In this document: positions 1,756 to 34,203 of the stretch, one piece after another
How positions within the stretch are numbered: position 1 is the stretch's first letter
Layout of the letters: every line of letters begins with the position of its first letter
NCBI RefSeq assembly: GCF_016811105.1
Contig: NZ_JAFBGM010000002.1
Coordinates: 434,001 to 498,000 of the forward strand
DNA from: Aurantibacter crassamenti
GTDB taxonomy: Bacteria; Bacteroidota; Bacteroidia; Flavobacteriales; Flavobacteriaceae
Length of the DNA stretch: 64,000 nt
Direction of reading: 5' to 3'
Made by a program: the position numbers and the translations under genes
Notes under the pieces: generated by a model
Database searches by the model: none
The model's input: only the letters and a program-made list of their open reading frames with translations
What the model was told of the DNA's origin: nothing

Positions 1756-1800
1756 CAGCTGATTTTTGCAATAAAAATTGAACGAATAAGTTATATACTA

Positions 1801-1843
1801 TGATAAAAATCATAGTAATTTTTATTTTAAGTATTTAAATTCG
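1801..1843 (+). promoter_or_regulatory. FNR/CRP-type box and -7 element upstream of usp1
   Basis: The core TGA-TAAAAA-TCA lies at 1801-1812, inside a larger imperfect palindrome at 1797-1816 whose outer 8 bases pair perfectly on each side. A -7-like element, TAAATTCG (7 of 8 to TAnnTTTG), begins at 1836, exactly 29.5 bp from the box centre. The same spacing recurs at three other boxes in this window. This places the box near -42, the class II activator position. Confidence 0.65.
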
Positions 1844-1865
1844 TTTAACCTTTTATAGCATAATT

Positions 1866-2687
1866 ATGAAAAAAATAATCGTACCTCTTGATTTTTCTAT
1901 ACAATCAGAAAATGCACTTAAAGTTGCTGCAGATTTAGCTAAAAATCATAATGCTGAAATTTTGGCTTTACACATGTTAGAGCTGAATCATAATATGATT
2001 TCATCTTCTCAAAATGCGCATCCTGAGCAAACTGTTTTTTTAATAAAACTTGCAGAAAAGCGATTTTCAGAATTCTTGAGTAAGGAGTATTTAAAGGGTA
2101 TTTCGATTACCCCAATTATTAAGCATTATAAGGTATTTAGTGAAATTAATGAGGTAGCTAAAGAAACAGACGCTGATTTAATAGTTATGGGTTCAAACGG
2201 CTCTGAAGGTATAGAAGAAGTTTTTGTTGGCTCAAATACAGAACGTGTTGTTAGAAATGCCGACATACCCGTTCTAGTTATAAAAAACACTTTCGACAAT
2301 TTTAAAGTAGATCGCTTGGTATTTGCTAGTAATTTTAACGTTGAAAAACTTCCAGCTTTTAAGAAAGCACAAAAATTTGCAAGCTTATTATCAGCTGAAA
2401 TGAAATTGGTTTATGTGAATACACCTGGTGATAATTTTAATAGCACTGAAGAAATATACAAGCGCATCAACACTTTTTTAGCGACAGCAAACTCATCACA
2501 TGAAGTGAAGATTTATAATGACTACACAGTTGAAAAAGGAATTTTAAACTATAGTAGTTCAATTGCTGCGGATATCATTGCAATTCCGACTCACGGAAGA
2601 ACTGGTTTATCGCATTTCTTTATGGGTAGTATTGGTGAAGATGTAGCTAATCACTCACCAATACCAGTAGTTACTTTTAAAATATAG
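1866..2687 (+). CDS. Universal stress protein, two tandem UspA domains
   Basis: 273 residues with two UspA-like domains (about 1-142 and 148-273). Both carry the ATP-binding G-rich signature: MGSNGSEGIEEVFVGSNTER in the first and PTHGRTGLSHFFMGSIGE in the second. The N-terminus MKKIIVPLDFS is typical of the family. These are cytoplasmic nucleotide-binding proteins induced by stress, energy limitation or low oxygen. The gene ends convergently with the GltB-like gene. An FNR-type box upstream, placed as for the cbb3 genes, suggests induction under oxygen limitation, as is known for some Anr-controlled Usp proteins in Pseudomonas. Confidence 0.9.
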   Translation: MKKIIVPLDFSIQSENALKVAADLAKNHNAEILALHMLELNHNMISSSQNAHPEQTVFLIKLAEKRFSEFLSKEYLKGISITPIIKHYKVFSEINEVAKETDADLIVMGSNGSEGIEEVFVGSNTERVVRNADIPVLVIKNTFDNFKVDRLVFASNFNVEKLPAFKKAQKFASLLSAEMKLVYVNTPGDNFNSTEEIYKRINTFLATANSSHEVKIYNDYTVEKGILNYSSSIAADIIAIPTHGRTGLSHFFMGSIGEDVANHSPIPVVTFKI

Positions 2688-2713
2688 TCGAAGTAATCAG
2701 TTTATTAATATAA

Positions 2714-4303
2714 CTACTTCATGATACGCGTTAGATGAAAGAATTTCTGATAACTTTCAGGAATTCTTTCAATATGCAATAATGAACCTTCTTCCATATA
2801 GGGATAAATTTCATCATACGTTTTAACCACATACATACCAATACGTTTGCTAATATGTTCACGACGAAGTTCGCTTGGCCCATTAAGACCAGCTGCTGCA
2901 ACTAACTCTAAAAAACTATGAATAGTAGCTTCATGAAAATTTTTGGCTCTTGGGGCTTTATCATCTACTACCAAGCCTCTCACGAGTGATTTATTTTGAG
3001 TAGCAACCCCAACTGGGCACGTATTGGTATTGCATTGTAAAGCCTGAATACAACCTATTGCTAGCATCATTGCTCTAGCACTATTACAACCGTCAGCGCC
3101 TAACGCAATTGCTCTCGCCATATGAAAACCAGTAATTATTTTACCCGCTACAATAACTTTAATATCATTTCTCAAGCCAAAGCCGACCAGGGTATCAATC
3201 ACAAAAATAAGTCCCTCTCTAAGTGGCATACCCATCGTATTTGAAAATTCAATTGGCGCCGCACCAGTGCCTCCTTCTCCCCCATCAACTGTTATAAAAT
3301 CAGGGGTAATACCTGTAAAAATCATGGCTTCACAGAAATCCATAAACTCTTGTTTTCGTCCTAAACAAAGTTTAAAACCTATGGGCTTACCTTCAGAAAG
3401 ATCTCGTAATTTTTTAATAAAATACATGAACTGAATAGGATCTGCAAAGGCAGAATGTGACGGTGGTGAATGCACTGCAATACCAGGCTTAATATGTCTT
3501 ATTTTAGCTATTTCTTCAGTATTCTTAATGGCTGGCAATATACCACCATGACCTGGTTTGGCGCCTTGTGAAAGTTTTATTTCTATCATTTTCACTTCCG
3601 GTCGTAGTGCATTTTGCTGAAATGATGCTTCATTAAAAGTACCGTCTTCATTTCTACAACCAAAATAACCGGTACCAATCTGCCAGATTAAATCGCCACC
3701 GTATTTTAAATGGTGATCACTAATACCACCTTCGCCGGTATTATGCGCAAAATTCCCCATTTTAGCACCTTTATTAAGTGACATAATTGCATTATTACTC
3801 AATGAACCAAAACTCATTGCTGAGATATTTAAGAGGCTTGAAGAATACGGTTGTTTACAATCTTTACCCCCAATTATCAAACGTGGAAAATCACCTATCT
3901 CCTTCGGATTTTGTTTTGCATACATAGAGTGTTCCATCCACTCGTAACCAGAATGGTACAAATCTTTTTGTGTGCCAAAAGGTTCAGTATCATTAGCCCC
4001 TTTTGCTCTTCTATAAATCAATGAACGAAGGATGCGATTCAAAGGTCTACCTTCAGTATCTGTTTCTACGAAATACTGCATAATTTCAGGTCGAATCGAT
4101 TCTAACAAATATCGAAATCGTCCTAGTACAGGGAAGTTTCTACGAATAGTATGACTCTTTTGAAAAATATCAAAAAGACCCATTATTACTAATGGTAAGA
4201 CTATAATAAACAACCATAAAATAGGTTGCCAGAAGAATGATAAAACAATAATTGTTAGTACTGTTATTGTAGCAATTATTATAAACTTCTCACGAACTTT
4301 CAT
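2714..4303 (-). CDS. FMN-binding glutamate synthase-family protein with N-terminal membrane anchor
   Basis: 529 residues resembling the GltB central/FMN domain (glutamate synthase domain 2), preceded by two hydrophobic segments within about residues 5-42. Motifs include the glycine-rich DGGEGGTGAAP region and three cysteines (418, 424, 429; C-x5-C-x4-C ending CPVGVATQ), the 3Fe-4S ligand pattern of glutamate synthases. The glutaminase domain and the GltD partner are absent, so this is a stand-alone GltB-like oxidoreductase, not a classical GOGAT. Its electron donor and substrate are unknown. It lies downstream of the cbb3 locus on the same strand but is separated from it by an 88 bp gap. Confidence 0.85.
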   Translation of the reverse strand: MKVREKFIIIATITVLTIIVLSFFWQPILWLFIIVLPLVIMGLFDIFQKSHTIRRNFPVLGRFRYLLESIRPEIMQYFVETDTEGRPLNRILRSLIYRRAKGANDTEPFGTQKDLYHSGYEWMEHSMYAKQNPKEIGDFPRLIIGGKDCKQPYSSSLLNISAMSFGSLSNNAIMSLNKGAKMGNFAHNTGEGGISDHHLKYGGDLIWQIGTGYFGCRNEDGTFNEASFQQNALRPEVKMIEIKLSQGAKPGHGGILPAIKNTEEIAKIRHIKPGIAVHSPPSHSAFADPIQFMYFIKKLRDLSEGKPIGFKLCLGRKQEFMDFCEAMIFTGITPDFITVDGGEGGTGAAPIEFSNTMGMPLREGLIFVIDTLVGFGLRNDIKVIVAGKIITGFHMARAIALGADGCNSARAMMLAIGCIQALQCNTNTCPVGVATQNKSLVRGLVVDDKAPRAKNFHEATIHSFLELVAAAGLNGPSELRREHISKRIGMYVVKTYDEIYPYMEEGSLLHIERIPESYQKFFHLTRIMK

Positions 4304-4391
4304 ACAAAATGAATTTGATATCGAAATTAATGAAAATTAAAAAGATTTGAGTTATTATTCTGTTGATGATAAAGTGTATCACCAATCATGC

Positions 4392-4889
4392 TTATATCGT
4401 ATTTGATAACTTACGAAGTACAAAATTATATAATTCATGCATTTGTGGTTTTCCTTTATGTTTACCAGCTCTACCAAATAAATAAAGTGCGAACCAAATA
4501 ACAACCATTAATCCCATAAAAAACAATTGAAGTGTATATGATTTTTGTAGTGCTGCATTTGAGTAAGCCCAAACGCTCATGATAATAAATAAAATAGCAA
4601 TGCCAAAATGAAGAAACATAAAGAATGTCCACAGTGCTGGATTTGGACCGAAAACACCATAAATTTTACAGTTTTTATCATTCAAGGTATCAATTTCTAA
4701 ATGCAATTGCGGAGACCAAAAATTATTCTGTTTTGGTGTGAATTTAATAAAGACATGTTCATCTAATCTTTTAATGATAAACGACGAACTTTCATCTTTT
4801 TCAAAAGAATTTAAAACAGATTCTTTTGTTTCTGGAACTTCAATTTGAAATCTTGGTCTAAGTACAATATCATTGGAAAGTGGTTTCAT
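4392..4889 (-). CDS. Conserved membrane protein of unknown function, end of the cbb3 operon
   Basis: 165 residues. The first about 85 residues look soluble, followed by two transmembrane segments (about 88-110 and 118-140) and a short basic tail. I do not recognise the family. Its ATG overlaps the stop of the preceding TauE/SafE-like gene (ATGA overlap at 4886-4889), so the two are almost certainly co-transcribed and translationally coupled. A role linked to cytochrome oxidase assembly or electron transport is an inference from position only. Confidence 0.7.
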   Translation of the reverse strand: MKPLSNDIVLRPRFQIEVPETKESVLNSFEKDESSSFIIKRLDEHVFIKFTPKQNNFWSPQLHLEIDTLNDKNCKIYGVFGPNPALWTFFMFLHFGIAILFIIMSVWAYSNAALQKSYTLQLFFMGLMVVIWFALYLFGRAGKHKGKPQMHELYNFVLRKLSNTI

Positions 4890-5611
4890 TCTTCTGATAA
4901 GGTTATTTCACTAGGACATGCCATACTTTCAGAAACAATTTCAACAACAGGTTTGGGTGATACATACGGAATACCTAAACCTAGACCGCGAATAATAAAT
5001 AATGCTCCAATAAGCACTACGAAAACCGGAATAAGTTTTTGCACCTTTAATCTTGATGCTCCTTTTAAAAAACTACTAAAATAAATCGCAGTTGTCATTA
5101 ACGGAATAGTACCTAAACCAAATAACATCATATATAAACTACCTTCAACTGCATTACCCATTGCTACAGATCCAAATAGTGCCATATAGACCAGTCCACA
5201 CGGAAGAAATCCATTTAGGAAACCAATGGTTAAAAAAGTGTCTGGAGATTTCTTTTTTAGTTCGTGCCCGAGACGATTCTTAACTTTTGAAATTGCCATA
5301 TAAAATGGTCTTGATAAACTAAATTTATTTAGAGTTTTGGTAGGAATAAAAACAATTGCAATCATTAAAACACCAATCGCAATTGACAACTTTTGTTGCA
5401 TTCCAAAAACATATAGTCCTTTACCTAATAAGCCAAATAACAATCCGATTATACCGTAAGCAAGTAGTCGGCCAAAATGATATAAGAATATTTGTAGAAA
5501 TTTTTTAAACTCGTTCTCTCTATTTACGGGCAACATAAAAGCAATGGGGCCACACATACCTACACAATGTAGACTACCGACTAAACCCATTAAAATTGCC
5601 GATAATAACAT
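4886..5611 (-). CDS. Sulfite exporter TauE/SafE (UreH-like) family membrane protein in the cco locus
   Basis: 241 residues with about six hydrophobic segments. The N-terminus carries GSLHCVGMCGP, the paired-cysteine motif of the TauE/SafE/UreH-type proteins that commonly sit next to ccoGH. Relatives in this setting are thought to act in cytochrome oxidase assembly, perhaps in metal or redox handling, but the transported substrate is unproven. The start lies 1 base after the stop of the upstream ccoH-like gene (ends at 5613) and the end overlaps the next gene, so this is a tight operon. The C-terminus contains one further cysteine in the cytoplasmic tail region. Confidence 0.8.
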   Translation of the reverse strand: MLLSAILMGLVGSLHCVGMCGPIAFMLPVNRENEFKKFLQIFLYHFGRLLAYGIIGLLFGLLGKGLYVFGMQQKLSIAIGVLMIAIVFIPTKTLNKFSLSRPFYMAISKVKNRLGHELKKKSPDTFLTIGFLNGFLPCGLVYMALFGSVAMGNAVEGSLYMMLFGLGTIPLMTTAIYFSSFLKGASRLKVQKLIPVFVVLIGALFIIRGLGLGIPYVSPKPVVEIVSESMACPSEITLSEE

Positions 5612-5612
5612 T

Positions 5613-6059
5613 TTAGTACGTTATATTTTTTTTATGTAAAAACGACTTACCCTCATACTCCCAAAACACTTTAATGTTCCATCGACCATCCAACAAACGT
5701 TCGTCAGGTATGAGCAAATTTGAATCAGATAGACTTATAGGTAAGTCAAAATCTAATTGTTTATTGGATGGTCTGTATAGAAACACATTTCCTGATATCT
5801 TAGTTGCAGTTTGATTTTGAGGGAAGCTAATTTTCAGCCCCTCTTTTGAAACGACAATTTTCATTGAATCACTCAAATTTTTTGCATTTTGTTCCGCATC
5901 AATATCTTTTTGATATCCCAATTCATCTTTATAGTAATCTTCAGTCACTAAATCATGTTCAGCTTTTACTTCAGTACTCATTCTAAAAACAAAGAACAGA
6001 ATAAATGAAATAAATGCTACAAATGCTATTACAATACTAGTACCCCAATTTATTTTCAT
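5613..6059 (-). CDS. ccoH: FixH/CcoH-family cbb3 oxidase assembly protein
   Basis: 148 residues: one N-terminal transmembrane helix (about 7-27) followed by a periplasmic beta-rich domain. This matches the FixH family in length and layout. FixH/CcoH proteins associate with the cbb3 oxidase or its copper ATPase during assembly. It lies between ccoG (6 bp upstream) and the TauE/SafE-like gene (1 bp downstream), the usual order in Bacteroidota. Similarity outside the helix is low, so the family assignment relies partly on context. Confidence 0.85.
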   Translation of the reverse strand: MKINWGTSIVIAFVAFISFILFFVFRMSTEVKAEHDLVTEDYYKDELGYQKDIDAEQNAKNLSDSMKIVVSKEGLKISFPQNQTATKISGNVFLYRPSNKQLDFDLPISLSDSNLLIPDERLLDGRWNIKVFWEYEGKSFLHKKNITY

Positions 6060-6064
6060 CTTAT

Positions 6065-7483
6065 TTATCTATAGCTTCTAGGCCCCAAAAACCTAGCCGT
6101 TGTGGTTTCAATTTTTTCATCACCGCTAAAAACGCCAATTTTTAAATTCGTTTTATCACCATCTAAGGCGGCGCTATTTATTTCAATAAAAAGTGTGCCT
6201 TCTGACATTTCTTGAGCTGGCACTATAAAATTTTCATGCCTTACAAGTTCAATTCTACCTTTGTGCGAAAGCAACTTAAAACTTACATCATCAACATCTT
6301 TAGTTGTTTTGTTTACCAATTTAAAAGTATATACATTACTAATAATATTGCCTTCTTTATGCTCATACAATTGCCCAGGCAATCGTAAAATATTTGCTTC
6401 AAGATCATTACGCAAAAACAACATCCCTATTAAGATTCCTGTTAATATAACCAACACAGCAGTGTAGCCTTTTAAACGTGGTGTAAATTTGAATTTTTCT
6501 TTTTTAACAATTTCATCTTCGCTAGCATAACGTATTAATCCTTTAGGAAGATTAACTTTTTCCATTATGGTATCGCACTCATCAATACATGCAGTACAGT
6601 TTACACATTCTAATTGCGTACCATTTCTGATATCTATATTAGTTGGACAAACATTTACACATTGAAAACAATCAATACAATCGCCATGACCTAATGCATC
6701 TCTATCTTCATTTTTTCTAAATTTCTTTCTACCATTCTCACCTTCTCCACGTTTATGGTCATAAGCAACAATAATAGATTTATCGTCAAGTAAAACCCCT
6801 TGCATTCTACCATACGGACAAGCAATAATACAAACCTGTTCACGAAACCAAGCGAATATAAAATAGAAAACTAAGGTGAAAATCAATAGTGAAATTAATG
6901 TGCTAACATGTTGTAATGGTCCATCAATAATGTATTCCAATAACCGATCACTACCAATCAAATAAGCTAAAAAAACATTAGCAATTAAAAATGAGATAAT
7001 GAAAAAGATTGCCCATTTCAAAACCCTTTTTCTTATCTTTTCAGCATTCCATGGTTGACGATTTAATTTCATTTGAGCTCCACGATCTCCATCAATCCAG
7101 AATTCTATTCTACGAAAAACCATTTCGAGAAATATAGTTTGCGGACACATCCATCCACAAAAAATACGACCAAAAGCAACTGTAAAAAGCGCAATAAATA
7201 CTACGCCAATAATCATTGAAATAACAAACAGATGAAAATCTTGTGGCCAAAAAGGAAAACCAAAAATATTAAATCGACGTTCTAATACATTGAACATCAA
7301 AAATTGATTACCATTAATTTTAATAAATGGTGCTACTACCAAAAACGTTAGTAAAATATAGCTAACTAGTTTACGGTATTGATAAAATTTACCACTTGGT
7401 TTTTTTGGAAATACCCATGCACGTTTACCGTCTTCACTGATGGTTCCAATTGAATCTCTAAAATTTTCTTGATCTTGTGCCAT
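6065..7483 (-). CDS. ccoG: Cytochrome c oxidase accessory protein CcoG
   Basis: 472 residues. Several transmembrane helices surround cysteine pairs at 109/113 (FCGWMCP) and 218/222 (CIIACPYG). Two [4Fe-4S] ferredoxin motifs follow, with cysteines 269, 272, 275, 279 and 293, 296, 299, 303. The C-terminal part is an immunoglobulin-like periplasmic domain. This is the full CcoG/FixG/RdxA arrangement. CcoG is a membrane iron-sulfur protein implicated in copper reduction for cbb3 oxidase biogenesis. It lies 89 bp after ccoP and 5 bp before ccoH on the same strand. Confidence 0.95.
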   Translation of the reverse strand: MAQDQENFRDSIGTISEDGKRAWVFPKKPSGKFYQYRKLVSYILLTFLVVAPFIKINGNQFLMFNVLERRFNIFGFPFWPQDFHLFVISMIIGVVFIALFTVAFGRIFCGWMCPQTIFLEMVFRRIEFWIDGDRGAQMKLNRQPWNAEKIRKRVLKWAIFFIISFLIANVFLAYLIGSDRLLEYIIDGPLQHVSTLISLLIFTLVFYFIFAWFREQVCIIACPYGRMQGVLLDDKSIIVAYDHKRGEGENGRKKFRKNEDRDALGHGDCIDCFQCVNVCPTNIDIRNGTQLECVNCTACIDECDTIMEKVNLPKGLIRYASEDEIVKKEKFKFTPRLKGYTAVLVILTGILIGMLFLRNDLEANILRLPGQLYEHKEGNIISNVYTFKLVNKTTKDVDDVSFKLLSHKGRIELVRHENFIVPAQEMSEGTLFIEINSAALDGDKTNLKIGVFSGDEKIETTTARFLGPRSYR

Positions 7484-7572
7484 TAATATTTAATTACACT
7501 ATTCAAATAACTCTTATCAAATTACAACCATTTAATTCACCTCATTAAAATATGAAGCACAGTTAGGTTTTA

Positions 7573-8457
7573 TTATTCTGCAGTTTCCTCCCAAATATCA
7601 CCCTCTGGTGCCTTTGGGTTGGCAGGCGTTGTACCATAGATTTTGGTAAGAATATAACTAGATACTTGAGCCCTTTCTATAGGCTTCAAAATTTGTTTCC
7701 ATGCAACCATACCTTTTCCGTCACGACCACCTTCAGAAACGGTATTAAAAACGTTTTTAATACCACCGCCTAAAATCCAATTTTCATCTGTAAGATTTGG
7801 GCCAATACCACCACCACCATCGGGCATATGACAGGCTACACAATTCGCAGTATAAATTGTTTCACCTGCCGAAATATCACTGGCATCAGTTAACAATTCA
7901 ACCGTATTTGCATCAACTAAATCTTTTGCAGTAAGCTTATAGGCTTCAACTTCAGCTCGAGCTTCGGCAACTTCTCGTTCAAATTCTTCAGTTTGTGTAT
8001 AATCGTTTACTATATGAAAGCGAACTAAATAAACTACGGCAAAAATAATGGTCGCATAAAACATATATACCCACCATGGTGGAAGTGTATTATCTAATTC
8101 TCGAATACCATCGTAATTATGATCGAGAATAATATCACCCTCTTTTTCAATTGGTTTTGAGCCAAGAAGTTTATTATAAGTTTTCTTTCCCCAGGTCCAT
8201 TCCCAATTCGTTGATTTCGCTTCAAGGTATCTTTTCTGGGCAGCTTCATCTAAAGTTCTAAACATTACGGACTCTATGGCCTGAATGATAATTTCAATTG
8301 CAACCAATATGAGCAATACTAAAAGAAAAAACCAGAGTAATATTGGGTATTCAATAAATGCTGGTTTATCTCCAGAATCAATAAAATATTCTGTTATTCC
8401 TATGATAATAAAGAAAATAACGGGGACACGAATCCACCAAACTGAACTATTTTTCAT
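7573..8457 (-). CDS. ccoP: cbb3-type cytochrome c oxidase subunit III, CcoP (single haem c)
   Basis: 294 residues. N-terminal transmembrane helices lie at about 8-26 and 38-60, and another at about 129-147 follows the conserved LDNTLPPWWVY segment typical of CcoP. The C-terminal cytochrome c domain has one haem motif, CVACH at 206-210, with GPNLTD and a likely axial Met near residue 254. Proteobacterial CcoP usually has two haem motifs, and only one is present here. The protein passes electrons to CcoO/CcoN at the inner membrane. It lies 39 bp after ccoQ. The C-terminus ends in an acidic tail. Confidence 0.93.
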   Translation of the reverse strand: MKNSSVWWIRVPVIFFIIIGITEYFIDSGDKPAFIEYPILLWFFLLVLLILVAIEIIIQAIESVMFRTLDEAAQKRYLEAKSTNWEWTWGKKTYNKLLGSKPIEKEGDIILDHNYDGIRELDNTLPPWWVYMFYATIIFAVVYLVRFHIVNDYTQTEEFEREVAEARAEVEAYKLTAKDLVDANTVELLTDASDISAGETIYTANCVACHMPDGGGGIGPNLTDENWILGGGIKNVFNTVSEGGRDGKGMVAWKQILKPIERAQVSSYILTKIYGTTPANPKAPEGDIWEETAE

Positions 8458-8496
8458 GTGTACTTATTTACGGTCGGTTAATAGTTTTATAATTTA

Positions 8497-8664
8497 TTAA
8501 TCTTCTAAAGGCAATTCACTAACCTCTTTGATATGTGCTTTTGATGCAGTAATTACCCACCAAAAAAGAATAGCAAAAAAGATGAAAAAAATTAATAACG
8601 AAATCATTGGGTAGGTAGCTACACCATCTATACTTTCTAAATGTCCTTTTACAAATTTTAACAT
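8497..8664 (-). CDS. ccoQ: CcoQ-like small subunit of cbb3 oxidase
   Basis: A 55-residue protein starting MLKFVKGHLESIDGVATYP, with one transmembrane helix (about residues 20-40) and a polar tail ending LPLEDX-like (LPLED, stop). It fits CcoQ/FixQ in length, layout and position between ccoNO (7 bp upstream) and ccoP (39 bp downstream). CcoQ stabilises the oxidase complex. Sequence conservation in this family is low, so the call rests largely on topology and gene order. Confidence 0.85.
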   Translation of the reverse strand: MLKFVKGHLESIDGVATYPMISLLIFFIFFAILFWWVITASKAHIKEVSELPLED

Positions 8665-8671
8665 AACTTAA

Positions 8672-10873
8672 TTATTTAGCCGCTGTTTCAGATCCATCTT
8701 TAATTTTAATATCCGTACCTAATCGCTGTAAATATGCTATTAAGGCCACTATCTCACGATCTCTCATCTGAATAAACTCTTCATTATTCTCCTGAGCATA
8801 CATCTTATCTGCTTCGTAGCTTTTTGCAAAATCAGGATCGGTATATAGATTTTTTTCAATCTTTGTTGCTTGTTCAACCATAGAGTTATTAGCATTGGCC
8901 ACATCTTCATCAGAATAGGGTACTCCTAAAGTTTGCATTGTTCTCATTTTAGTTTGAATATTGCTACGATCATGCTCGTTTCTTATCAACCATTGATATG
9001 CAGGCATTATTGATCCAGACGAAGTGCTTTGCGGATCATACATGTGGTTAAAGTGCCAGTTATCAGAATATTTTCCTCCTACTCTCAATAAATCTGGTCC
9101 TGTTCTTTTACTACCCCAAAGAAATGGATGATCATATACGAATTCACCCGCTTTGGCATATTCACCATAACGTTCCACTTCACTTCTAAAAGGGCGAACC
9201 ATTTGAGAGTGACAACCAACACACCCTTCTCTTATGTAAAGGTCTCTTCCTTCTAACTCCAATGGTGTATATGGTTTAACACTTGTAATTGTCGGAATAT
9301 TAGATTTTACCATTATAGTTGGAACTATTTGTACAATACCTCCAATTAAAATAGCAACTGTAGCCAAAATTGTTAACTGCACTGGCTTGCGTTCTAACCA
9401 TGTATGAAAAGTTTCACCAGATGTTCTACTTTTTGAGACTTTAGATAAAGCTGGCGCTTCTGCCAATTCGTCTTCTACTGCTTGGCCAGAACGTATTGTT
9501 TGAACCACATTATATAACATTACAAATGCTCCTAAAATATACATGCTACCACCAATGGCACGCATCCAATACATGGGTATAATTTCGTTAACAGTTTCTA
9601 AAAAGTTACCATAAACCAAAGTGCCGTCTGGGTTAAAATCTTTCCACATTAAAGCTTGAGTAAATCCAGCTACATACATTGGTAATGTATATAATATAAT
9701 GCCCAAAGTTCCTATCCAAAAATGTGTATTTGCTAAACCAATAGAGTATAATTTAGTTTTTGTCATTCTTGGTATTAACCAATAAATCATTCCAAAGGTT
9801 AAAAATCCATTCCAAGCAAGAGCTCCCACATGAACATGAGCAATAATCCAATCACTAAAATGCGCAATAGCATTAACATTTTTAAGTGAAAGTAATGGCC
9901 CCTCAAAAGTTGCCATACCATAACCCGTAATTGCAACAACCATAAACTTTAATGTAGGATCTGTACGTACTTTATCCCATGCACCGCGCAATGTTAATAA
10001 TCCATTTATCATACCTCCCCAAGAAGGTGCGATTAACATAACAGAAAATGCAACACCTAAATTTTGAGCCCAATCAGGAAGTGACGAATATAATAAGTGG
10101 TGTGGTCCGGCCCAGATATAAATAAAAATTAAAGACCAGAAATGTACAATTGAAAGGCGATAAGAATAAACAGGTCTGTTAGCTGCTTTAGGAACAAAAT
10201 AATACATCAATCCTAGAAAAGGTGTTGTTAAAAAAAATGCCACGGCATTATGTCCGTACCACCATTGCACCAATGCATCTTGTACCCCAGCATAAACCGA
10301 ATAGCTTTTTAATGCTGAAACCGGTAGCGCAAGACTATTGAAAATATGTAATACAGCAATTGTCACAAATGTTGCGAGATAAAACCAAATTGCCACATAC
10401 ATATGTCGTTGTCTTCGCTTAATAATTGTGCCTATAAGGTTCCAACCAAAGACAACCCAAATAACAGCTATAGCAATATCAATGGGCCATTCGAGTTCTG
10501 CATATTCTTTTGATGAAGTATACCCTAGTGGTAGTGTAATAGCAGCTGCAACAATAATAAGTTGCCAGCCCCAGAAGTTAATTTGACTTAAAATATCGTT
10601 GAACATTCTAGCCTTTAATAATCGTTGCGTAGAATAATAGACTCCTGCGAAAATTGCATTACCAACAAATGCAAAAATAACCGCATTTGTATGTAACGGT
10701 CTAAGTCTTCCAAAGCTCAACCATGAGATTCCATCAGTAACATTGGGGAATAGAAACATAAAAGCAAGTAAAAGCCCTACTGACATACCTACAATACCCC
10801 AAAAAATAGTGGCATAGAGGAAATTTTTTACGATTTTGTTATCATAATAAAACTGCTGTACTTCCATAATCAA
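8672..10873 (-). CDS. ccoNO: Fused cbb3 oxidase subunits I and II (CcoN-CcoO)
   Basis: 733 residues. Residues about 1-480 form the twelve-helix CcoN haem-copper oxidase core, with conserved HTNAVIF and HVHVGALAWNG histidine regions. Residues from about 505 form CcoO: one membrane anchor, then a monohaem cytochrome c domain with CVGCH at 551-555 followed by SQMVRPF. The fusion is common in Bacteroidota; other phyla usually encode two proteins. It reduces oxygen to water with high affinity and pumps protons. Two ATGs lie two codons apart (MIMEVQQ) and the start is not resolved. It begins 9 bp after ccoS and precedes ccoQ by 7 bp. Confidence 0.96.
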   Translation of the reverse strand: MIMEVQQFYYDNKIVKNFLYATIFWGIVGMSVGLLLAFMFLFPNVTDGISWLSFGRLRPLHTNAVIFAFVGNAIFAGVYYSTQRLLKARMFNDILSQINFWGWQLIIVAAAITLPLGYTSSKEYAELEWPIDIAIAVIWVVFGWNLIGTIIKRRQRHMYVAIWFYLATFVTIAVLHIFNSLALPVSALKSYSVYAGVQDALVQWWYGHNAVAFFLTTPFLGLMYYFVPKAANRPVYSYRLSIVHFWSLIFIYIWAGPHHLLYSSLPDWAQNLGVAFSVMLIAPSWGGMINGLLTLRGAWDKVRTDPTLKFMVVAITGYGMATFEGPLLSLKNVNAIAHFSDWIIAHVHVGALAWNGFLTFGMIYWLIPRMTKTKLYSIGLANTHFWIGTLGIILYTLPMYVAGFTQALMWKDFNPDGTLVYGNFLETVNEIIPMYWMRAIGGSMYILGAFVMLYNVVQTIRSGQAVEDELAEAPALSKVSKSRTSGETFHTWLERKPVQLTILATVAILIGGIVQIVPTIMVKSNIPTITSVKPYTPLELEGRDLYIREGCVGCHSQMVRPFRSEVERYGEYAKAGEFVYDHPFLWGSKRTGPDLLRVGGKYSDNWHFNHMYDPQSTSSGSIMPAYQWLIRNEHDRSNIQTKMRTMQTLGVPYSDEDVANANNSMVEQATKIEKNLYTDPDFAKSYEADKMYAQENNEEFIQMRDREIVALIAYLQRLGTDIKIKDGSETAAK

Positions 10874-10882
10874 TCTTAGTGT

Positions 10883-11074
10883 TTAGTTGGATTTTTTAAT
10901 TTTGGTCTTAATTTTTTGGGAAGGTATTTTTACGACTTCATCTTCAAAAAGCATTCGAACTGAAGGTGTATAAGAATCGTCGTATTGCCCTTTACGAACC
11001 GCATAAATAAAGGCGGCAAAAAAAACCAGAGCAACCACAATACTTATGGCTAAAAGAATATAAATAGCACTCAT
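10883..11074 (-). CDS. ccoS: cbb3-type cytochrome oxidase assembly protein CcoS
   Basis: 63 residues starting MSAIYILLAISIVVALVFF, a single transmembrane helix followed by GQYDDSYTPSVRMLFED. This is the characteristic CcoS pattern (small helix, then G-Q-Y/F-D-D-x-x-x-P). CcoS is needed for cofactor insertion into CcoN. A longer reading frame extends to 11137. I reject that start because it would run through the predicted promoter and the FNR-type box, and because family members begin at MSAIY. It precedes ccoNO by 9 bp. Confidence 0.92.
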   Translation of the reverse strand: MSAIYILLAISIVVALVFFAAFIYAVRKGQYDDSYTPSVRMLFEDEVVKIPSQKIKTKIKKSN

Positions 11075-11093
11075 ACCTACCTGAATTAAAGTG

Positions 11094-11136
11094 TAAAAAT
11101 ACATGGTGCCCTGTTTAACAAATATGACATATGTCA
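11094..11136 (-). promoter_or_regulatory. FNR-type box and -7 element for ccoS-ccoNOQP
   Basis: A perfect 14-bp palindrome at 11124-11137 contains TGA-CATATG-TCA (core 11125-11136). On the minus strand a -7-like element, TATTTTTA (7 of 8 to TAnnTTTG), runs from 11101 to 11094, again 29.5 bp from the box centre. The promoter would start transcription near 11088, just ahead of the ccoS ATG at 11074. This is the best match of the four boxes. Confidence 0.75.
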
Positions 11137-11164
11137 TGTTTACTCTTTTTTTTAAGGGAAAATA

Positions 11165-13561
11165 TTACTCCAATTGTTTTCCTAATAAATTTGTCATAAT
11201 CGTCGTAAATGCAACTACGCTAATTGAGCTTAACGGCATTAAAATAGCAGCGATTATGGGTTGAAGTTGACCGGTCACCGCAAAATAAAGACCAACAACA
11301 TTATACATTAAGGATAATATAAAACTCAGTCTAACTATTGTCATCGCTTTTTTTGCAGCCTGTATAAATTTTGGTAATTGCTGAAATTTTGAAGCATCAA
11401 GAATACCATCACATGCAGGTAAAAAAACATTCACATTTTCTGAAATTGTTAAACCAACTTCAGCTTGAGCTAATGCACCAGCGTCATTTAACCCGTCTCC
11501 AACCATTAGCACTTTTTTACCTTTATCTTGAAGTGCTTTTATAAACTCTAATTTATCTACAGGTTTTTGATTAAAATACAATGGAGTTAATCTGGGCAAT
11601 AATCGCTCTAATCGCCTTTTTTCAGCTTCATTATCACCTGAAAGAATAGCTATTTTATAAGATTCTGACAATTCTTGAAAAATTTCAGTTACACCTTTTC
11701 TATATTCGTTATGAAACACATACTTACCTTTATAAGTATCATTACTACTGATATGAACAGCAGTATTTAAAGAATCACTAGCGCTATTTTTGCCAACATA
11801 TTCTGCTGAACCTGCCTTGATAAAAGCATCACCTTTACTACCCTCAACTCCCTGGCCTATATGTTCATCATATTCATCTAAACTAACAATATCATGTTCG
11901 GCTAATAAACTATATAATGACCTACTCAATGGATGATTTGAGGCACGTAACGTATTTCGCAGAAGGGATACTTCGTCTATATTTAATGGCATACCTTCAT
12001 ACGTAGCCGTACTTTTCTTTGAAGTTGTAATGGTACCCGTTTTATCGAAAATTGCTGTATCTATCTGAGCTAGTTGCTCAATAGTCTGTGTATTTTTTAA
12101 GTAACATTTTTTACGTCCAAAAATGCGCAATAAATTTCCCAGAGTAAATGGTGCTGCTAAGGCAATAGCACATGGACATGCGATAATTAATACGGCTGTA
12201 AAAACGTTTAGTGCTTTACTAGGCTCAACATATAACCAATATCCTGTTGCCAAAAATGCAATAGATAATACAGTTACTGTAAACTTTTTACTTATTGTAT
12301 CGGTAATTGTTTGATGCCTACTTGTTTTATCCGTTTGAAAAATAGAATTACTCCACAATTGTGTTAAATAACTTTGAGATACCGATTTTAAAGTCTCTAT
12401 TTCTATTACACCTCGCAGTTGTTTACCTCCAGCATAAATTTTATCACCAGAACTTTTATGAACCAGCTCGGATTCTCCTGTCACAAAACTATAGTCAATT
12501 TGAGCTTTCCCTTTTAATAAAATGGCATCAACAGGAATAAGTTCTTCATTTCGAATCAACAATCGATCACCCTTTTTTATATTATTAACTTGAATGTTCT
12601 CTTCCTGCCCTTCTGCCGTAATTCTTGTTACGGCAATAGGAAAATATGACTTATAATCGCGTTCAAAAGATAAAAATGAATATGTTTTCTGTTGGAAAAA
12701 TTTACCTAATAAAAGAAAAAAAATCAACCCAGTTAATGAATCAAAAAAACCATTTCCCCAACCAAAAATAATCTCAAATGTACTACGTAGAAAAAGCACT
12801 AATACACCGAGGGCGATGGGTACATCAATATTTAGTATTTTACTACGTAACCCTTTATAAGCCGAAATAAAATAATCATTAGCAGCATAAAAAACCACTG
12901 GTAACGAAAATACAAACATCAACCAGCGGAAAACATTTTGATACTGGTTCAACCAAAATTCACCACCAGTTGTTTCGCTAGAACTCAAATCAAAATAATC
13001 CGGAAAAGATAAAAACATCACGTTACCAAAAGCAAAACCAGCAACTCCTAGTTTATAAATTAAACTTCGGTCAATTGTTTTTTTCTTATTATCATAGTCG
13101 TCTAAAGAAATATAGGGTTCATACCCAATTTTAGTAAGCAATTCGACTAGACCTTTAAGTGAGATTTCTGAACTTTGATAAGTAACTCGCACTGTTTTTT
13201 TAGGAAAATCTACTTGCGATAACTTTACAAACGAATTCAGTTTACTTAAATTTTCAAGTACCCAAATACAAGAACTACAATGTATATGTGGTATATATAG
13301 ATTAACTATTTGTGTTTCACCATCATTAAATTCGACTAATTTATCGATGATATCTACATTGTCTAAGAAATTATATTTATCTGCAATTACTTTTGGAGTT
13401 GCCCCAGCAGCCTTTTGAATTTCATAATAGTGCGAAAGATCATTACTCGAAAAAATTTCATAAACAGTTTTACAACCGTTACAACAGAATTCTTTTGCAT
13501 CAAATTCTATGCTGTTACTTGCACATTCTTCACCACAATGGAAGCACTCACTTTTAATCAT
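11165..13561 (-). CDS. ccoI: Copper-transporting P1B-type ATPase of the cbb3 locus (CcoI/FixI)
   Basis: 798 residues from the chosen ATG. The N-terminus has a cysteine-rich segment (Cys6, Cys9, Cys13, Cys26, Cys27, Cys30), then a heavy-metal-associated domain with HCSSC (Cys95, Cys98). Membrane helices carry the CPC metal site (IIACPCAIALA). The soluble part has DKTGTIT (phosphorylated Asp) and GDGLNDAGAL. CcoI exports copper for CuB insertion into CcoN. An in-frame ATG ten codons upstream (13591) exists but lies upstream of the predicted transcription start, and the family begins near the MIKSECFHCG segment. The gene is divergent from the FNR gene and shares an FNR-type box with it. Confidence 0.93.
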   Translation of the reverse strand: MIKSECFHCGEECASNSIEFDAKEFCCNGCKTVYEIFSSNDLSHYYEIQKAAGATPKVIADKYNFLDNVDIIDKLVEFNDGETQIVNLYIPHIHCSSCIWVLENLSKLNSFVKLSQVDFPKKTVRVTYQSSEISLKGLVELLTKIGYEPYISLDDYDNKKKTIDRSLIYKLGVAGFAFGNVMFLSFPDYFDLSSSETTGGEFWLNQYQNVFRWLMFVFSLPVVFYAANDYFISAYKGLRSKILNIDVPIALGVLVLFLRSTFEIIFGWGNGFFDSLTGLIFFLLLGKFFQQKTYSFLSFERDYKSYFPIAVTRITAEGQEENIQVNNIKKGDRLLIRNEELIPVDAILLKGKAQIDYSFVTGESELVHKSSGDKIYAGGKQLRGVIEIETLKSVSQSYLTQLWSNSIFQTDKTSRHQTITDTISKKFTVTVLSIAFLATGYWLYVEPSKALNVFTAVLIIACPCAIALAAPFTLGNLLRIFGRKKCYLKNTQTIEQLAQIDTAIFDKTGTITTSKKSTATYEGMPLNIDEVSLLRNTLRASNHPLSRSLYSLLAEHDIVSLDEYDEHIGQGVEGSKGDAFIKAGSAEYVGKNSASDSLNTAVHISSNDTYKGKYVFHNEYRKGVTEIFQELSESYKIAILSGDNEAEKRRLERLLPRLTPLYFNQKPVDKLEFIKALQDKGKKVLMVGDGLNDAGALAQAEVGLTISENVNVFLPACDGILDASKFQQLPKFIQAAKKAMTIVRLSFILSLMYNVVGLYFAVTGQLQPIIAAILMPLSSISVVAFTTIMTNLLGKQLE

Positions 13562-13581
13562 CTTAATTCGCGTACAAGAAG

Positions 13582-13655
13582 CAAATTTCAATGAAAGTTA
13601 AACCATATAATATGACATATATCAGTTTTTGCTTAATTCTAGGATATTACTTTTG
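13582..13655. promoter_or_regulatory. Shared FNR-type box between divergent ccoI and fnr-like genes
   Basis: The core TGA-CATATA-TCA lies at 13613-13624. On the plus strand TACTTTTG (an exact TAnnTTTG match) begins at 13648. On the minus strand GAAATTTG (7 of 8) begins at 13589. Both lie 29.5 bp from the box centre. A single bound dimer could therefore activate both ccoI and the regulator gene from a class II position, implying autoregulation. Confidence 0.7.
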
Positions 13656-13678
13656 ATTTGGATAATAAAATCTACCAG

Positions 13679-14368
13679 ATGGAAACGAGATGCGAGAATT
13701 GTATTATTAGGCAATTCAATTCTTTAAGAGCTATGAGCAAAGAAGAACTGAAAATAGTATCTGACACAAAAATAACGAAGACATTAAAAAAAGGGGAAGT
13801 TCTTTTTGAAGAAGGTGAAAAGTTAGATGGCGTTTTTTGTGTTCGTGATGGTGTTACAAAACTTTCAAAACTCAGTCCTAACGGTAAAAATCAAATAGTA
13901 AAATTAGCAAGTAAAGGAGAAGTAATTGGACAACGTTCTGTTATAGCTGAAGAATCTACTAATCTAAGTGCAATAGCTGTAAGCGATATGAAAGTGTGTT
14001 ATATTCCAAAAAATGCCATAGTTAGCACATTAGATTCTAATCCTAATTTCGCATTAGAAGTGCTACGCCACATGGCACATGATTTAAAAGAAGCCGATAA
14101 TGTAATTGTGAACATGTCACAGAAAACCGTAAAACAACGTATTGCAGAAGCATTTATGTATTTGAAAAATAATTATGGTGAGGACGATAATGGTTTTTTA
14201 GCATTAAGCTTATCACGAGAAGAATATGCTAATGTAGTGGGGACTGCCACTGAATCTTGCATTCGAATAATCTCAGAATTTAAGAAGAAAGGTCTAATTA
14301 AATCATCTGGCAAAAAAATTGGAATTATAAATGAAAAAGGTTTATTAAATTTAATAGAAGGCTTCTAA
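13679..14368 (+). CDS. FNR/CRP-family transcriptional regulator
   Basis: 229 residues from the ATG at 13679. An N-terminal Cys-x2-Cys (METRCENC), a cyclic-nucleotide-binding-type beta-roll with two further cysteines (VFCVRDG, KVCYIP), a dimerisation helix and a C-terminal winged HTH are visible. The recognition helix reads TATESCIRIISEF: the E-x3-R spacing matches CRP/FNR proteins that read TGA half-sites. The cysteines could bind an oxygen-labile Fe-S cluster, but this is inferred. An in-frame TTG at 13658 would add seven residues, but it lies upstream of the transcription start predicted from TACTTTTG at 13648-13655. Its position beside ccoI and the boxes around it make it the probable regulator of the oxidase and Usp genes. 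Confidence 0.9.
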   Translation: METRCENCIIRQFNSLRAMSKEELKIVSDTKITKTLKKGEVLFEEGEKLDGVFCVRDGVTKLSKLSPNGKNQIVKLASKGEVIGQRSVIAEESTNLSAIAVSDMKVCYIPKNAIVSTLDSNPNFALEVLRHMAHDLKEADNVIVNMSQKTVKQRIAEAFMYLKNNYGEDDNGFLALSLSREEYANVVGTATESCIRIISEFKKKGLIKSSGKKIGIINEKGLLNLIEGF

Positions 14369-14397
14369 ATAGTAAACAAAGTAAAATTTTTACGTTG

Positions 14398-14425
14398 CTT
14401 GAAATTATAAGTTTCAGGTTTTTTT
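14398..14425 (+). terminator. Probable intrinsic terminator after the fnr-like gene
   Basis: A 9-bp stem (14398-14406 with 14410-14418, including two G-U pairs) with a 3-base loop is followed by seven T residues at 14419-14425. The stem is weak but the U-tract is good. Confidence 0.55.
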
Positions 14426-14507
14426 ATATCCGATTTCTTAGGAAAAAAACATTCTATATAGAACTAATTTTATATAGAACTATTTGAGTACAATCTAATT
14501 TGTAAAC

Positions 14508-14550
14508 TGACTTATATCATATTTTTAAATAGAGTCAGAAACTAATTTTA
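14508..14550 (+). promoter_or_regulatory. FNR-type box and -7 element upstream of usp2
   Basis: The core TGA-CTTATA-TCA lies at 14508-14519. TAATTTTA (7 of 8 to TAnnTTTG) begins at 14543, 29.5 bp from the box centre, as at the other boxes. The predicted transcription start near 14556 lies about 20 bp before the usp2 ATG. The half-sites are intact but the inner hexamer is less symmetric than at ccoS. Confidence 0.6.
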
Positions 14551-14575
14551 CAAAAAAGATTAGATAAAAGACGAA

Positions 14576-15421
14576 ATGAAGAATGTACTAATACCTACAG
14601 ATTTTTCTAGAAATGCGCTAAATGCAGTTAAATACGCTACAAAGTTATTTCAAAATGAAGAGTGTACATTTTACTTATTAAACGCGTATACACCATCCAT
14701 TGGGCATAGTCGGTTTTTTGCTGAAACCATGACTCATTCCGTTCTTGTTGAAAATGAGGGTAAAACTTCAAAGCAAGAATTAGAAAAAGTGATAGCACAA
14801 ATTCAGACCTTTAGTTTAAATCCGATTCATTACTTCGAGACAATTTCTTCATTTGACTTTTTAACGCAAAAAGTAATTGAGACCTTGCAAGTTAAAGACA
14901 TAGACGTAATAATATCAGGTACAAAAGGAGCCTCTGGTTATAAAGAGGTTTTCTTAGGCACAAACACGGTACGAATGATAAAATCAGTTAAAAACAGGCC
15001 CATAATAGCCGTACCTCAAATATGCTCATTTATTAAGCCAACTAAAATTGCATTTCCCACTGACTTTAAACACAACTTTAGTGCAGACGTTCTAGATCCA
15101 CTAATATCTTTGGCGAAAAATTTTAATTCTGAAATCCATATTTTTCATGTAAATGAGACCATGAAAAAAGATAAATTTAAAGAGTCTAATAAACATACTT
15201 TAATAGAATACATGGCACCCATCAAACACCTTGTTCATTTTGCACCTCAGTATTCTAGTAAGACTAATGTTATTACTAATTTTTTAGAAGAGCTTGACAT
15301 AAATATGTTAGCATTAGTTTATAACAATCATAGTTATCTACAACAATTGATGCGAGAACCGGTTGTCACTAATATGGCATATCATTGTAAAATTCCGCTT
15401 TTAATACTTCCAAGCGAATAG
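14576..15421 (+). CDS. Universal stress protein, two UspA-like domains (second degenerate)
   Basis: 281 residues. The first domain (about 1-148) starts MKNVLIPTDFS and has the G-rich signature SGTKGASGYKEVFLGTNT. The second half (about 155-281) has the FPTDFK strand typical of a Usp repeat but lacks the glycine-rich nucleotide-binding loop, reading LALVYNNHSYLQQLMREPVV instead. It may therefore bind ATP only in the first domain. A predicted FNR-type box upstream links it to the neighbouring cbb3 locus. It is a distant paralogue of the Usp at 1.9 kb. Confidence 0.85.
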   Translation: MKNVLIPTDFSRNALNAVKYATKLFQNEECTFYLLNAYTPSIGHSRFFAETMTHSVLVENEGKTSKQELEKVIAQIQTFSLNPIHYFETISSFDFLTQKVIETLQVKDIDVIISGTKGASGYKEVFLGTNTVRMIKSVKNRPIIAVPQICSFIKPTKIAFPTDFKHNFSADVLDPLISLAKNFNSEIHIFHVNETMKKDKFKESNKHTLIEYMAPIKHLVHFAPQYSSKTNVITNFLEELDINMLALVYNNHSYLQQLMREPVVTNMAYHCKIPLLILPSE

Positions 15422-32932: not shown

Positions 32933-34203
32933 TATAGTAATTTCGAAAGTTCTTCGGTCAAAGCCCGGCGACTATACTTATCAAGGTTCTTTGAAGCTAT
33001 TGACAGGCTATCATTTTTAAATGCTTTGAACCATTTTAAAATTACATCTTTTAGCTCAGAATTAGAGGTATAATCAAAAACAGCTCCTGATTCGGTTTCG
33101 GCAATGACTTTACCCGCATCCCAATCATTTGGGCCTACCGCTAAAATAGGTCGTTGGGCTGACATGTATTCAAATAATTTACCTGGAATGATGCCTTTTG
33201 TTTCTTCAGAATCAATCTCTATTAAAAGTAAAACCTGTGAACTACGTTGCTTTCGAACTGCAGCAGCATGCGATACATAACCTTTAAACTTAATATAAGG
33301 TTCAAGTTCATAACGGTGTAAACTATCCATAACATCTTGGCTTACTACACCGAGAAATTCAAGTTGCAACTGCGTTCTAAAAACCGCATCTTCGCGCGCA
33401 ATTTCAGAAATTATCTTCCACAAATTTGTGGGATTTCTACCTGTCAATAAAGATCCAATATGAGTAATTGTAAATTGCGTATCTAAATGAGATTCGCCTT
33501 TATAATCCGTATCATGGCCGTTTGTTATAACCGAGATAGGCTGTTTGGTTAATGCCGAAAACTCGGTTTTTGTAGTTGCGCTGGTTACAACAATTTTATC
33601 TGCATTATTTAAAACCTGCTTTTCTAATTGCTTATGTTTTTGCTGCGATGCCTTTGAAAGCTTCAATTTTTTATGATACCCAATTGAAGTCCACGGATCA
33701 CGAAAATCAGCAATCCATTTCAAATTAAATTTATTTTTTAATCCATCACCAATTAAATGAACACTATGCGGTGGCCCAGTAGTAACTACAGTATCTATAT
33801 TTTGTTCTTCTATAACAGCTGATAGATAATCAATTGATGGCTTTACCCAATTTTTACGGGCATCAGGAATAAAAAAGTTGCCTCTTATCCAAAGCATTAG
33901 TTTTTCAAGTGACGATTGGTTTTTCGTTTGAATGACCCCAGAACTAATTCTTTTTGTTTTTTTGGAGGATAACAAACCAGCCAATTTATAGGGTTCAGAA
34001 ATCTTATGCTTTAGAATTTGAATTCCGGATGGTACTTCTTTTTCTAAAGTAACATCTACAATTGGGTAATTTGGGTTCTCAGGAATATAAACTATGGGCT
34101 CAAAACCAAATTCTGGTAAGTACTTGACAAACTTCAACCATCGCTGTACACCTGGCCCACCAGCAGGTGGCCAATAGTACGTAATGATCAAAATCTTTCG
34201 CAT
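32932..34203 (-). CDS. Glycosyltransferase, GT4/GT-B fold
   Basis: 423 residues. The N-terminus (ILIITYYWPPAGGPGVQRW) is the GT-B motif typical of family 4-like enzymes in Bacteroidota, and the C-terminal half has IPGKLFEYMSAQRPILAVGP, the donor-binding E-x7-E-like region. It probably transfers a sugar to a surface glycan or lipid-linked intermediate in the cytoplasm. It overlaps its neighbours by 1 base on each side, so expression is coupled with YfhO and the flippase. The sugar donor cannot be told. Confidence 0.86.
   Translation of the reverse strand: MRKILIITYYWPPAGGPGVQRWLKFVKYLPEFGFEPIVYIPENPNYPIVDVTLEKEVPSGIQILKHKISEPYKLAGLLSSKKTKRISSGVIQTKNQSSLEKLMLWIRGNFFIPDARKNWVKPSIDYLSAVIEEQNIDTVVTTGPPHSVHLIGDGLKNKFNLKWIADFRDPWTSIGYHKKLKLSKASQQKHKQLEKQVLNNADKIVVTSATTKTEFSALTKQPISVITNGHDTDYKGESHLDTQFTITHIGSLLTGRNPTNLWKIISEIAREDAVFRTQLQLEFLGVVSQDVMDSLHRYELEPYIKFKGYVSHAAAVRKQRSSQVLLLIEIDSEETKGIIPGKLFEYMSAQRPILAVGPNDWDAGKVIAETESGAVFDYTSNSELKDVILKWFKAFKNDSLSIASKNLDKYSRRALTEELSKLL

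Follow-up and report, generated by a model that had tools for sequence, protein, structure and literature searches.

A fixed-spacing FNR-type promoter layout in Flavobacteriaceae, probably shared by at least two candidate low-oxygen regulators

Gene organization of the cco-fnr-usp locus

The DNA analysed here (the window) is a 64,000-nucleotide stretch of the genome of Aurantibacter crassamenti, a member of the family Flavobacteriaceae (contig NZ_JAFBGM010000002.1, positions 434,001 to 498,000), and it encodes a cbb3-type cytochrome oxidase, two universal stress proteins (Usp), and a regulator of the FNR family. Four boxes of the form TGA-N6-TCA precede usp1, ccoS, the divergent ccoI/fnr pair, and usp2, and each of the five reading directions contains an element resembling TAnnTTTG (the -7 element); all of these lie at the coordinates assigned to them in an initial annotation of the sequence (Table 1). 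As that annotation had described, the octamer begins 29.5 bp from the box centre in every case, i.e. 23 nucleotides (nt) past the TCA, and the ATG codons follow 25-33 nt past the first base of the octamer. The octamer matches themselves had been overrated: seven or eight of eight bases had been counted, but, because the two n positions are free, TAnnTTTG has only six informative bases, of which the elements of usp1, ccoS, ccoI, fnr, and usp2 match 5, 5, 5, 6, and 5, respectively.

Table 1. Boxes, -7-like elements, and genes of the cco-fnr-usp locus (positions refer to the window)
Feature	Position	Strand	Sequence or evidence
FNR-type box of usp1	1801..1812	+	TGATAAAAATCA
-7-like element of usp1	1836..1843	+	TAAATTCG, 5/6; ATG 30 nt past -7 start
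usp1, universal stress protein	1866..2687	+	Pfam Usp, 1.7e-44
Fused ccoN-ccoO	8672..10873	-	Pfam COX1 + FixO, search span 8672-10867
ccoS (FixS)	10883..11074	-	Pfam FixS, 1.3e-19; ATG 27 nt past -7 start
-7-like element of ccoS	11094..11101	-	TATTTTTA, 5/6
FNR-type box of ccoS-ccoNO	11125..11136	-	TGACATATGTCA on - strand
ccoI, P-type ATPase	11165..13564	-	Pfam E1-E2_ATPase, 7.6e-39; ATG 25 nt past -7 start
-7-like element of ccoI	13582..13589	-	GAAATTTG, 5/6
FNR-type box common to ccoI and fnr	13613..13624		TGACATATATCA on + strand
-7-like element of fnr	13648..13655	+	TACTTTTG, 6/6; ATG 31 nt past -7 start
fnr, FNR-family regulator, 229 amino acids	13679..14368	+	C5, C8, C54, C107; helix TATESCIR
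FNR-type box of usp2	14508..14519	+	TGACTTATATCA
-7-like element of usp2	14543..14550	+	TAATTTTA, 5/6; ATG 33 nt past -7 start
usp2, universal stress protein	14576..15421	+	Pfam Usp, 1.8e-15

Box-to-promoter spacing in the window, the genome, the family, and the phylum

When the scores of the five window directions were summed, offset 23 reached 26 of 30, and the runner-up among 60 offsets reached 17. In 20,000 mononucleotide shuffles and in 20,000 random sets of real window stretches, a common offset at which all five directions score at least 5 never occurred. The TGA-N6-TCA box alone is common, occurring 28 times in the AT-rich 64-kb window, and it is thus the geometry that carries the signal. 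A genome-wide scan, which the initial annotation had proposed, was made on the whole 4.52-Mb genome (two contigs) and yielded 116 composites of box, spacer, and octamer with at most one mismatch, compared with 40 matches to the reversed pattern.

The spacing was then left free in 21 genomes of the family, in which TGAT-N4-ATCA boxes were searched with gaps of 8-38 nt. Among the 150 matches listed of 168 in total, 49 have a gap of 23 nt, whereas the other 30 gaps account for 101 matches, with 0-7 each. A strict composite, defined as the palindromic box TGAY-N4-RTCA followed by 23 nt and TAnnTTTG, was found 910 times in 120 family genomes and is present in 107 of them, whereas its reversed pattern was found 18 times. 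Lengthening the gap by a single base to 24 nt reduced the number of matches in the same 120 genomes to 90, with 30 for the corresponding reversed pattern. Some of these gap-24 sites share the ending TCGTTATATTTG or TCGCTATATTTG between different genera (e.g. G072:C34:108988, G084:C1:285707, and G017:C3:412206), and such sites may represent a single conserved promoter whose spacer is longer.

A scan of 296 genomes of the phylum, tallied from the scan table, indicated that the composite fades with phylogenetic distance. It is present in all 30 genomes of the same family (mean, 9.1), in five of six genomes of one other family of the same order (mean, 4.0), in 31 of 37 genomes from the rest of the class (mean, 3.0; seven reversed-pattern matches across those 37), and in 58 of 223 genomes from the rest of the phylum, of which 18 have at least two sites. 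One genome outside the class (G387, family f46) carries 28 composites (11 + 17) and no reversed-pattern match, far above the other out-of-class genomes.

Both motifs are AT-rich and loose, and the abundance of boxes in the window could be taken to mean that AT-rich sequence matches a permissive pattern by chance. This explanation is contradicted by the spacing histogram, with its one-base-sharp peak, and by the reversed-pattern and shuffled controls, and its probability is negligible. What departs from chance is the geometry, which holds genome-wide, family-wide, and, as described below, at orthologous promoters.

Conservation at orthologous promoters and the question of fnr autoregulation

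Orthologous regions for the ccoS, ccoI, fnr, and usp2 directions were compared in named relatives (the best 80 of 542, including Zobellia, Maribacter, Flagellimonas, Allomuricauda, and others); usp1 was left out of this comparison. Offset 23 ranks top in each of the four directions. A palindromic box is present at ccoS in 59 of the 72 relatives having the region and at usp2 in 76 of 79, and every one of these boxes (59/59 and 76/76, respectively) is accompanied at offset 23 by a -7 element whose score is 5 or 6. The -7 forms are promoter-specific across the relatives: TAGTTTTA occurs at ccoS in 42 of 59, TAATTTTA and TACTTTTA occur at usp2 in 53 and 15, respectively, and the ccoI-directed element, which scores 5 in 74 of 75 relatives, begins with C, A, or G rather than T in its eight commonest forms.

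The initial annotation had further suggested that fnr is autoregulated, and this proved not to be general. Among the 75 close relatives (of 80) that have the box, the fnr-directed -7 element reaches a score of 5 or more in 61. In a wider set of 30 fnr orthologues from the family (own sequence included, 58-100% identity, two without a box), this score is reached by 8 of the 13 orthologues that are at least 74% identical, the window's own among them, and by none of the 15 box-bearing orthologues at 69% identity or less; in these same 15, the ccoI-directed element is retained. Over 27 boxes of the wider set, offset 23 has the top mean score toward ccoI (5.07), whereas toward fnr its mean (2.96) falls below that of offset 9 (3.19). 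Because the fnr-directed element is lacking in distant orthologues and offset 23 falls below offset 9 in that direction, autoregulation cannot be regarded as a general property.

The FNR-family regulator encoded in the window

The regulator contains cNMP-binding-like and HTH_Crp domains (Pfam); its AlphaFold model has a mean predicted local distance difference test score of 83.6, and Foldseek matched it to 2gau and 5e44 (holo-FNR). The E-x3-R recognition helix noted in the initial annotation is well founded, E192 and R196 being invariant in 27 of 27 FNR sequences, own included. Four cysteines, C5, C8, C54, and C107, are invariant in all 45 sequences compared (a first set of 30, which includes the window's own, and 15 further orthologues), of which the most distant shares approximately 40% identity.

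Aligned with A. fischeri FNR, the regulator has cysteines at the positions equivalent to C20, C23, and C122 and an asparagine at that of C29; in E. coli FNR, C20, C23, C29, and C122 are the cluster ligands. No cysteine was found at the C29 equivalent in the 27 sequences (all N) or in the 15 further orthologues, which have N, S (three), or a gap (two). Cys54 sits in a predicted strand of the beta-roll; judging from the strand assignments (51-57 and 104-110) and the general topology of cNMP domains, C54 and C107 presumably lie on neighbouring strands. The nearest solved sequence, 2gau of P. gingivalis, has Tyr at the C54 position. All three FNR paralogues examined carry Phe at position 54 and, N-terminally, a third Cys (CxxC-x4-C). 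The reciprocal occurrence of C54 and the third N-terminal Cys is the pattern that would be expected of a relocated cluster ligand, rather than a proof of a cluster, and the window FNR is probably an oxygen-labile iron-sulphur protein with C5, C8, and C107 as ligands and C54 as a relocated fourth one. Asn14 was also considered as the missing ligand; it is invariant in the 27 sequences, but was set aside because it is replaced by Ser in three and by a gap in two of the 15 further orthologues, whereas C54 stays.

The genome also encodes a third FNR-family paralogue (L258; contig C2, 882.2-883.3 kb), with CxxC-x4-C, Cys107, Phe54, and the helix GTTEEQVIR.

A Usp-rich cluster encoding a FixL-like kinase and a receiver-FNR fusion

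On the other contig of the genome, a Usp-rich cluster was identified (C1, approximately 2,527-2,575 kb; loci L031-L033). Of the 18 palindromic boxes within the 60 kb read there, 14 are accompanied at offset 23, on one or both sides, by a -7 element with five or six matches, most of the sites carrying a mismatch in this element, whereas every other offset from 0 to 79 reaches at most 2 of the 18 boxes; this density is not an unbiased figure, because the region was picked for its dense composite matches. The Pfam families encoded in the cluster include a HemN-like radical SAM protein, TauE, Usp, DUF302, a ribosome hibernation factor, a beta-CASP nuclease, a phospholipase-D-type protein, and a rhodanese-MBL protein.

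Also encoded in the cluster are a PAS histidine kinase and, after it, a 350-amino-acid protein in which receiver, cNMP-binding, and HTH_Crp domains are fused (Pfam). The solved sequences closest to the first PAS domain of the kinase are the FixL heme domains (1d06, E 7.9e-13), followed by DosP and other PAS sensors (14 sequences, E <=0.001). All 21 kinases examined have the aligned heme His and 19 of them the aligned Arg; a heme is a predicted feature of this domain. In the fusion, receiver Asp52 and the helix GIATESLIR are conserved in 20 of 20 sequences, comprising our own and its 19 best matches (the open reading frame (ORF) filter on the helix allowed several forms and dropped none), and the kinase gene adjoins the fusion gene in 20 of 20 regions, chosen from 54 fusion-bearing genomes.

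A further short CRP/FNR-family protein (210 amino acids) is encoded within the cluster at local positions 12182-12814 of L033.

Two candidate readers of one promoter layout

We infer that the promoters described here are regulated through their boxes, and we consider it likely that they are class II-type activator promoters with one layout, read by at least two low-oxygen regulators with matching recognition helices, i.e. the window FNR and the receiver-FNR fusion. The distribution of the regulators bears on this reading. Window-type FNR was called at E <1e-59 in 69 of the 120 genomes and the fusion at E <=1e-40 in 54, the latter from 17 scored candidates per genome; the other FNR paralogue was left out of the classification. 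The mean number of composites per genome is 12.8 in the 27 genomes with both regulators, 7.1 in the 42 with FNR only, 9.0 in the 27 with the fusion only, and 0.96 in the 24 with neither. Of the seven genomes of at least 3.0 Mb in the last group, six have 0-2 sites.

In three FNR-only genomes, the genes downstream of 30 of the 36 sites were examined, and in three fusion-only genomes those downstream of 30 of the 42; the second list of downstream families covers 25 of 35. By a permissive rule with no control, an ORF was found downstream of 28 of 30 and 30 of 30 sites, respectively. In both sets, cbb3 genes, hemN-type radical SAM genes, nadA, phosphate acetyltransferase, hibernation factor, and Usp genes are found. 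The other FNR paralogue is present in one genome of each set (G017 and G108). In the fusion-only set, the sites before ccoS and hemN-type genes come from G027 and G101, in which no FNR match other than the fusion was found at E 1e-20.

The initial annotation had proposed a single autoregulated regulon under the window FNR. Its FNR-type promoter class, fixed geometry, recognition helix, and cbb3 and Usp targets are supported, whereas a sole reader and a general autoregulation are not, and the regulon extends far beyond the four boxes. The presence of the third FNR-family paralogue in the same genome also speaks against a sole reader. That the window FNR alone reads the boxes would accord with the position of fnr between them, with its E-x3-R helix, and with the sites retained in FNR-only genomes; it is unlikely, considering that the 27 genomes with the fusion and without window-type FNR at the threshold keep their composites, that these include the ccoS and hemN-type sites of G027 and G101, and that the -7 element toward fnr is missing from the distant orthologues.

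A division of labour is a possible, though less favoured, alternative, in which FNR would serve the cco and fnr promoters and the kinase and fusion would serve the Usp island, the geometry being shared only through the polymerase. The fusion gene lies inside the island, Usp genes are downstream of 7 of 30 fusion-only sites compared with 1 of 28 FNR-only sites, and the FNR-only set is richer in cytochromes. Nevertheless, the fusion-only set includes ccoS and hemN-type genes, the FNR-only set includes Usp and hibernation-factor genes, and the boxes of the two sets closely resemble each other, the main difference being the base that precedes TGA (A in 24 of 30 in one set; A in 15 and C in 13 of 30 in the other). 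A comparison of box sequences, meant to tell the sites of the two regulators apart, yielded no more than this weak difference. Past the box, T occupies positions 14-17 in 26, 24, 19, and 21 of 30 FNR-only sites and in 19, 22, 14, and 16 of 30 fusion-only sites.

The signal could also be nitric oxide (NO) rather than oxygen, with the boxes read by a DNR/NnrR- or HcpR-type sensor; HcpR is a member of the CRP/FNR family. In Porphyromonas gingivalis, HcpR is reported to be heme-dependent and to respond to NO (PMC12750200), and the proteins downstream of FNR-only sites include two of 28 of a NorB-like cytochrome c family and two of a multicopper oxidase family. However, cbb3, hemN-type, fermentation, and hibernation genes make up the remaining targets, FNR has its four invariant cysteines, and the kinase PAS domain is closest to FixL and DosP, all of which make an NO sensor unlikely.

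Several observations weigh against the two-reader interpretation. At least one composite is present in 96 of 96 genomes with either regulator and in 11 of 24 with neither, but this co-occurrence is partly confounded because the genomes with neither are often small, and some fusions may be missed because only 17 candidates were scored per genome. In the group with neither regulator, G051 (at least 3.0 Mb) has three sites and carries the other FNR paralogue, G020 and G043 (one and two sites), assigned by E-value, carry a divergent four-Cys FNR, and G048 (82% complete, 6% contaminated) supplies 9 of the 23 sites. In the Usp-rich cluster, 4 of 18 boxes lack the geometry; the kinase-fusion operon has no good composite directed toward it (1/6 at island position 33277); and the box at 27549 scores 6/6 away from the Usp gene and 4/6 toward it, with no ORF of at least 80 amino acids kept on the side and strand of the 6/6 element (L032 local 7549). 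Among the named relatives, the range searched contained no palindromic box in 13 of 72 (ccoS), 5 of 80 (fnr/ccoI), and 3 of 79 (usp2), and the better score of offset 9 toward fnr belongs here as well.

Proposed mechanism

Under the two-reader interpretation, an FNR-type dimer would bind TGAY-N4-RTCA with its centre 29.5 bp before the start of TAnnTTTG. The box would thereby be placed near -41.5, as in a class II promoter, in a form adapted to the Bacteroidetes polymerase; the T-tract past the box may substitute for the usual -33 element, and a short leader would come next. One reader would be the ccoI-linked window FNR, and the other would be the receiver-FNR fusion paired with the FixL-like PAS kinase. 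Falling oxygen is predicted to induce cbb3 respiration, oxygen-independent heme synthesis, acetate/formate metabolism, Usp, and ribosome hibernation.

A more specific proposal, which we judge to be evenly balanced between right and wrong, is that Flavobacteriaceae combine an FNR subfamily having a relocated beta-roll Cys as cluster ligand with a FixJ/FixK pair collapsed into a receiver-FNR under a FixL-like heme kinase, and that both sensors converge family-wide on the box, 23 nt, and TAnnTTTG. A rule precise to one base predicts candidate low-oxygen promoters across a large environmental bacterial family, and it makes testable both the way in which an activator makes contact with the divergent Bacteroidetes polymerase and the possibility that FNR holds its cluster via a relocated ligand.

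Comparison with known systems

The window FNR shares with E. coli and A. fischeri FNR the CRP/FNR fold, the E-x3-R helix, and the cysteines equivalent to C20, C23, and C122. As at class II FNR promoters, the distance between the box and the -10/-7 element is fixed, as seen in the gap-23 peak, with the box inferred to lie near -41.5. The window FNR differs in lacking the Cys at C29 and having the invariant Cys54 of the beta-roll, and its promoters carry TAnnTTTG in place of TATAAT, the E. coli-type promoter element.

HcpR of Porphyromonas is likewise a transcriptional regulator of a Bacteroidetes species, reported as a heme/NO regulator (PMC12750200). In PMC8510549, CRP/FNR homologues of a Flavobacteriales genome are placed near MalR and predicted to be carbon sensors. 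The targets found here suggest oxygen for the regulators described in this study, which are perhaps different proteins from those. No account of such a regulon was present among the matches listed in the open full-text literature, a coverage that ends short of subscription journals.

The DosR dormancy regulon of mycobacteria is a low-oxygen, Usp-rich regulon with a heme sensor kinase and a LuxR-type output. A Usp-rich low-oxygen gene set under a putative heme kinase would resemble it by analogy only, the output here being of the CRP/FNR type and not of the LuxR type. The rhizobial FixLJ-FixK system shares a FixL-like PAS kinase with an aligned heme His, an FNR-type output, and cbb3 targets. 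In that system, FixJ is a LuxR-type intermediate, whereas the partner of the kinase described here, without a LuxR-type FixJ, is a receiver fused straight to an FNR-type DNA-binding protein.

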